Positions 18,165 to 18,230 of a stretch of 23,773 nt of DNA are shown piece by piece. The stretch's first letter is position 1. Each line of letters begins with the position of its first letter. Origin of the DNA: a virus; IMG/VR virus record IMGVR_UViG_3300025674_000397, positions 1-23,773 of that record; one strand, written 5' to 3'. A program made the translations under genes and the position numbers. The notes under the pieces were generated by a model that was given only the letters and a program-made list of their open reading frames with translations, did not search any database and was not told the DNA's origin.

Positions 18165-18230
18165 AAGTAAGGAGGGGAATCGAACCCCTCCCAGTGCGCG
18201 TTAAGCACGCACTAAGTCACCAGATTACTT
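18165..18230 (-). ncRNA. tRNA-like element lacking a normal D-arm
   Basis: On the minus strand, the last part has exact class-I tRNA spacing. An anticodon arm (5-bp stem TGCGT/GCGCA, 7-nt loop GCTTAAC) is followed by a 5-nt variable loop, then a T-arm AGGGG-TTCGATT-CCCCT with the consensus T-loop, then an acceptor-like strand ending TTACTT. TTACTT pairs with AAGTAA at the 5' end, but the two inner acceptor pairs are mismatched. Only about 10 nt lie where an 18-nt D region is expected, and position 33 is C instead of T. Read strictly, the anticodon would be UUA, which reads UAA. It could be a degenerate tRNA, a mimic processed by host tRNA enzymes, or a terminator-like hairpin. A standard functional tRNA is unlikely. 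The 5' arm overlaps the stop of the 33-residue gene. Confidence 0.45.

Follow-up and report, generated by a model that had tools for sequence, protein, structure and literature searches.

The interval described here lies in the window, i.e. the whole stretch of 23,773 nucleotides of viral DNA that was analysed (IMG/VR record IMGVR_UViG_3300025674_000397); among isolates, Synechococcus phage S-RIP1 comes closest over this interval, at 93.5% identity. On the minus strand, psbA is followed by a Glutamine-II riboswitch, a 33-aa open reading frame (ORF), a tRNA-like element, a structured leader termed module B and the major capsid gene (table 1). The riboswitch and the ORF, which carries a YRG motif and for which a Pfam search gave no match, together occupy positions 18404-18225 downstream of psbA in the window, and the same pair precedes the capsid gene in many relatives.

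Table 1. Features of the psbA-capsid interval, copies of the inserted hairpin and copies of the tRNA-like element at early genes.
Feature	Source	Position	Strand	Basis or remark
psbA (photosystem II D1), upstream cistron	window	19488-18412	minus	Pfam Photo_RC, 302 bits
Glutamine-II (Downstream-peptide) riboswitch	window	18404-18343	minus	Rfam RF01704, 37.7 bits, over its cut-off
33-aa ORF MSINLIRFLDNQRKRAERYRVDTLRYRGVEYKK	window	18326-18225	minus	sequence
Stop codon TAA of the 33-aa ORF	window	18227-18225	minus	sequence; inside acceptor 5' strand
tRNA-like element, entire	window	18230-18165	minus	fold, scan, covariance model, relatives
Acceptor-like stem, 5' strand AAGTAA	window	18230-18225	minus	pairs with 18170-18165
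Degenerate D-like mini-hairpin TCTGGTGA	window	18224-18217	minus	4-6 bp hairpins instead in many relatives
Inserted hairpin AGTGCGTGCTTAACGCGCACT (anticodon arm of the initial annotation)	window	18213-18193	minus	missing in L029 and most relatives
T-arm GGAGGGG-TTCGATT-CCCCTCC (7-bp stem, loop TTCGATT)	window	18191-18171	minus	sequence, covariation
Acceptor-like stem, 3' strand TTACTT	window	18170-18165	minus	sequence
Module B, structured capsid leader, begins TTTGGC	window	18163-18095	minus	76-sequence alignment
Module B, P1	window		minus	76-sequence alignment
Module B, P2 hairpin	window	18151-18142	minus	76-sequence alignment
Module B, P3	window	18131-18118	minus	76-sequence alignment
Module B, P4	window	18119-18095	minus	76-sequence alignment
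Palindrome CAAACGTTTG, between module B and capsid start	window	18076-18067	minus	other palindromes there in relatives
Major capsid protein (gp10A-like), downstream cistron	window	18033-16909	minus	Pfam Gp10A-like, 240 bits
Copy of hairpin GTGCGTGCT(N)AACGCACAC	L214	1538		inside Glutamine-II riboswitch
Copy of hairpin GTGCGTGCT(N)AACGCACAC	L016			after psbA
Copies of hairpin GTGCGTGCT(N)AACGCACAC	L038; L057	2727; 2799		in another RNA structure
Copy of hairpin GTGCGTGCT(N)AACGCACAC	S-B28 (L247)	near 41495		
Copies of the element between early genes	S-TIP37; S-SBP1; Syn5; NATL2A-133	1010, 1463; 952, 1348; 2723; 43749, 43112	coding	structural scan
Copies of the element before early genes	S-SBP1; P-SSP7; S-RIP2	610; 625, 1022; 39637	coding	structural scan

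The tRNA-like element, its sequence and its fold, had been recognized in the initial annotation, and both are borne out: an acceptor-like stem, formed by the pairing of AAGTAA with TTACTT as had been proposed, encloses a hairpin and a T-arm of tRNA type, while the D region, rightly described as near-absent, consists of TCTGGTGA only. The folding energy of the element is -27.9 kcal/mol, as compared with -16.6 +/- 2.8 for dinucleotide shuffles (z = -4.0), and a scan of the window for an acceptor stem joined to a T-arm returned one match where 0.0 were expected. The T-arm has the 5+7+5 geometry, the T-loop and the G53-C61 pair of a tRNA. The acceptor stem has 6 pairs rather than 7, there is no D-arm, and the arm in the anticodon position has neither U33 nor a conserved anticodon, its loop being CTTAA or CTGAA. 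The searches that had been suggested for a regular tRNA or tmRNA gave little: ARAGORN found no tRNA over the window, the Rfam tRNA model called none in the window interval, and with Rfam at E <= 10 the interval returned solely the Glutamine-II riboswitch and a cyano_tmRNA match of the size of the T-arm, sub-threshold at 15.2 bits against a cut-off of 70. The combination of a tag-peptide region with a tRNA-like domain, which would define a tmRNA, was found neither by ARAGORN nor by Rfam.

The middle arm had been read as an anticodon arm with a 5-bp stem and a 7-nt loop, the literal anticodon of which, UUA, would decode the stop codon UAA. A loop GCTTAAC does arise if the arm is trimmed to 5+7, but the arm as it stands in the window comprises 9 pairs closed by the 5-nt loop CTTAA. 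Furthermore, the loop reads UGA (CTGAA instead of CTTAA) in S-RIP1 and L221, and the arm is missing altogether in S-TIP37, in most other relatives and in L029, where TCTGGTGACTT runs directly into GGGAGGGG. The same hairpin, GTGCGTGCT(N)AACGCACAC, of 18-21 nt, is found in the window at 18213-18193 and at unrelated sites within RNA structures (table 1), so that it is apparently a stereotyped and mobile unit. Because the arm is such a hairpin, present also at unrelated sites, and its loop is not conserved, the literal suppressor anticodon is ruled out, and with it the idea that the loop serves to read a stop codon.

The conserved features emerge from the comparison of 188 distinct capsid-gene leaders. 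A T-loop arm upstream of module B was scored in 100 of them, and a different hairpin, with the loop CACCTCAGAGTCGGA, in 76 (e.g. L005, L009, L010, L011, L012). In the tRNA-like form, the conserved core combines the T-arm with an acceptor stem 5-7 pairs long and, as a rule, a small hairpin; C61 lies 11-13 nt from the end of the acceptor in nearly all cases (12 in tRNA). Both acceptor and T-arm are present in 95 capsid leaders, among which the acceptor 3' strand takes 38 distinct forms, the pairs varying among AAGTAA/TTACTT, AACTGA/TCAGTT, GCTGA/TCAGC, GAGTA/TACTC, GCGGGTG/CACCCGC and others. Since a MAFFT sequence alignment (A2) throws the acceptor strands out of register, their pairing was tested by permutation, swapping the upstream regions among the 38 distinct acceptor types: pairing of each acceptor with its own strand scores 6.59, as compared with 5.34 +/- 0.16 after permutation, and none of 2000 permutations reaches the observed value. 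The T-arm helix is paired in 99.7% of cells over 63 distinct sequences, with both sides changed in 5 of 6 pairs. In the model-based alignment A4 the overall covariation is 0.343 versus 0.140 +/- 0.011, with the acceptor and D-like helices badly registered (41-47% paired cells); therefore, the claim for the acceptor rests on the permutation test and on individual sequences. Thus, the stems are maintained by compensatory change in dozens of phages, as the initial annotation had asked of related genomes, and the recurrence of the element with co-varying strands, along with the excess in the window scan, is more than chance.

The alternative CACCTCAGAGTCGGA hairpins comprise 29 distinct stems in which the inner four pairs are always formed and the loop is near-invariant, and they presumably serve the same boundary as the tRNA-like element. 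On a tree of 172 capsid-protein sequences (FastTree, parsimony) the leader type switches between tRNA-like and plain hairpin at least 29 times, recombination perhaps accounting for part of this count. In L098 and L132 a complete tRNA-Gly(UCC), found by ARAGORN as a full cloverleaf, abuts module B, and Gly-like forms with a reduced D region directly adjoin it in L129, L130, L146 and L208.

On the capsid side, the copies of the element give way to module B after 0-2 nt. Part of this module, GGGAWAGACCAC, is found 56-127 nt ahead of the capsid start in 170 places, the other nine matches belonging to incomplete contigs or being unrelated chance matches. Module B is built from P1, a UACG-type hairpin, GAUACC, the palindromic P3 and a hairpin with a GAUAGA loop; its covariation in the 76-sequence alignment is 0.495, versus 0.146 +/- 0.012 when shuffled and <=0.095 in slid versions, and at 11 loci Rfam returned nothing on its own strand at E <= 1. 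P3 overlaps the 3' strand of P1. The palindromes at 18131-18118 and 18076-18067 differ among phages (CCGTCTAGACGG, CCGTCATGACGG, CCAAACGTTTGG, CAAAGATCTTTG and others) and are perfect or near-perfect, beyond what a hairpin needs. Pieces similar to P2 are also found ahead of the capsid gene in two pelagiphages, HTVC019P and HTVC011P. In L020, L042 and L228 an ORF of ~107-123 aa reading AAGLFEGEGYIT, the sequence of which resembles that of a LAGLIDADG homing endonuclease, is interposed between the leader and the capsid gene. A further conserved structure, TTTCCACAAYTGTAAAGCCCGAAGGAACGGTTTAAGGAGTGG..GGAAAGC..CCACGCC, precedes the capsid gene in L197 (2490), L010 (4343, minus strand), L114 (361) and L120 (6659, minus strand), and is present in part in L008 (2195) and L240 (19800).

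The element is not confined to capsid leaders. When the window and 10 complete records of T7-like cyanophages were scanned for the structure, 19 matches fell on the coding strand and 0 on the other, with 0.1 expected overall; the same scan found none in T7, and a stricter version of it dropped true cases. One of the 19, at S-TIP37 32621, falls inside a coding gene and is regarded as a chance match. The early copies (table 1) carry a single hairpin within a few nt 3' of each, and a copy is found ~90-130 nt ahead of psbA in 11 metagenomic loci. Over 1.97 Mb, 90 distinct sense matches (66 in capsid leaders and 24 elsewhere) stand against 0 antisense, numbers that do not represent a frequency, as many loci were fetched via their capsid genes or the element's own pattern; the strand bias outside capsid leaders, 24:0, is unaffected by how loci were fetched. 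A covariance model, R1, searched at E <= 1 against 12 records (519,572 bases), returned 18 matches, each of them on the coding strand; members of the seed necessarily match, and the matches from outside the seed are Syn5 19839, the window, S-RIP1, P-SSP7 1007 and both in NATL2A-133. R1 had no match in S-B28 and S-CBP4, and in the controls (T7, SP6, pelagiphages HTVC019P and HTVC011P, and 50 kb of S-PM2) nothing fell below E = 0.1, T7 being without any match. By comparison of sequence and predicted fold, the window element belongs, as one of its copies, to a family of reduced tRNA-like structures that T7-like cyanophages carry at gene boundaries. Rfam holds no family for it, and a search of the literature on cyanophage tRNA-like elements, RNase P, tRNA punctuation and structured RNAs, outside which most subscription papers lay, yielded no description of it.

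A further regularity is the overlap with the preceding cistron. Among 55 distinct capsid leaders with a small YRG-motif ORF, 54 have the stop codon of this ORF inside the element; in 38 of these it falls in the 5' strand of the acceptor and in 16 in the stretch separating the acceptor from the T-arm. The annotation of S-TIP37, S-SBP1, Syn5 and NATL2A-133 likewise shows upstream stop codons overlapped by the early copies. As the upstream stop lies in the 5' half of the element, folding, and any cutting, should wait for the departure of the last ribosome.

The use of tRNA-like folds to define transcript ends is known from other systems. The mascRNA of MALAT1 is a tRNA-like element that sets a transcript end via RNase P and RNase Z, differing from the phage elements in belonging to a eukaryotic nuclear lncRNA and in occupying a single site. 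In phage T7, too, the long RNA is cut at structured sites located at gene boundaries, but these are long double-stranded hairpins and the enzyme is RNase III. The tRNA-Gly(UCC) of L098 and L132 occupies the same place and shares the T-arm and acceptor geometry of the window element, which, unlike it, lacks a D arm and a real anticodon arm. The C4 antisense RNA precursor of phages P1/P7 is, as cited in PMC11143913, a phage RNA and a substrate of the host RNase P, but is not a repeated gene-boundary signal. A parallel in arrangement is offered by the t-elements of plant mitochondria and mitochondrial tRNA punctuation, in which tRNA-like structures at gene ends are cut by RNase P and RNase Z, which defines mRNA ends (PMC11658184): here, too, a tRNA-like fold is found at cistron boundaries on the coding strand, although the phage elements sit in the genome of a cyanobacterial phage, are strongly reduced and overlap the upstream stop codon, and their cutting is presumed.

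On these grounds, the element is probably a form of tRNA punctuation, at which host RNase Z and/or RNase P would cut the long transcript at gene boundaries; among the readings put forward in the initial annotation, that of a mimic which recruits RNase P/Z to cut just ahead of the capsid gene appears to fit best. The phage would produce long polycistronic RNAs, in which the stacked acceptor and T-arm would be recognized by both host enzymes. The Syn5 RNA polymerase has two promoters, and >37 kb are transcribed from one of them (PMC3950665), so that boundaries need processing; in the window, only 4-mismatch matches to a Syn5-type promoter were found, none near the element. RNase P cleaves acceptor/T-arm minihelices (PMC11143913), and cyanobacteria possess both RNase P and RNase Z (PMC10989914). 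The RNase Z cut would be expected right after 18165 or after the next nucleotide, A18164, and a cut just 3' of the acceptor would free a capsid mRNA with the structured leader at its very 5' end. The psbA/small-ORF message would then either keep the element at its 3' end, as a tRNA-like cap, or lose it through a second cut on the element's 5' side. Because a 5' cut by RNase P would take the upstream stop codon away in most capsid leaders, where RNase Z would have to do by itself, a 3' cut by RNase Z is the most likely minimum. Recognition could be weakened by non-canonical traits, namely acceptors of 5-6 bp, no encoded CCA and the lack of D and anticodon arms. Furthermore, as some phages use the other hairpin alone (S-B28 and S-CBP4, without match), likeness to tRNA is not required for a boundary.

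The main rival of the punctuation reading is an RNA structure that is selected but uncut, which would stabilize mRNA ends, block 3' exonucleases, separate the ribosomes of neighbouring cistrons or bind a protein (e.g. as a translational operator of the capsid gene). It is possible rather than likely: the strong fold with its covariation, the interchange with a plain hairpin and the upstream stop codon within the element would all be in keeping with it, but a T-loop on a stem of acceptor length and a complete tRNA-Gly at the same place are unexpected for a mere stabilizer, and the sites ahead of psbA, capsid and early genes are easier to reconcile with a processing signal of general use than with an operator for a single gene. 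It is highly improbable that an intrinsic terminator, which the initial annotation had named as a potentially better fit, or an attenuator separates psbA from the capsid gene. The T-arm hairpin followed by TACTTATTTG does pass a loose terminator scan, in the window only (1 found, 0.5 expected), yet this tail is the acceptor strand, and relatives read CAAGC, CAGTC, ACTCGC etc. in its place, with no conserved T run; moreover, a stop there would silence the capsid gene, the nearest upstream Syn5 promoter being kilobases off.

Two further proposals of the initial annotation treat the element as a relic. That a tRNA gene captured from host or phage is decaying without function is very unlikely, in spite of the resemblance of the tRNA-Gly of two relatives and the Gly-like forms with reduced D region to a reduction series, given that compensatory change preserves the stems and that one genome repeats the element at several boundaries; such changes, the 90:0 bias for the coding strand and the several copies per genome are signs of selection. 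An integration (att) site relic or recombination hot spot is the least credible and seems extremely improbable. T7-like cyanophages do integrate at tRNA-Leu (PMC8776855), and the cassettes around the element vary, but in the known attP sites, which lie beside the integrase gene, the match is to the first half of tRNA-Leu (PMC8776855), whereas the element lies between psbA and the capsid gene, away from int, and occurs in several copies per genome; since, in addition, a search of 84,980 prokaryote genomes gave no exact match to its T-arm and acceptor strand GAGGGGTTCGATTCCCCTCCTTACTT (26 nt), this origin is not supported. Thus, the decay, attachment-site and terminator readings all fit worse than punctuation.

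An extension of the punctuation reading, unlikely as it stands, would make the element a translation-gated switch: ribosomes on the stop codon of the peptide controlled by the glutamine riboswitch would keep the element unfolded, so that the glutamine level of the infected cell would determine what share of the transcript is cut between psbA and capsid gene, with the same type of element punctuating the early genes.

T7-like cyanophages are among the ocean's commonest viruses. If the punctuation reading is true, it would directly answer how they adjust the output of capsid, psbA and early proteins separately when the transcripts are long, and it would show tRNA punctuation in a DNA phage, by means of a repeated signal missed by tRNA finders and Rfam. 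It makes sharp predictions for P-SSP7, Syn5 and S-TIP37, all of which have laboratory systems.
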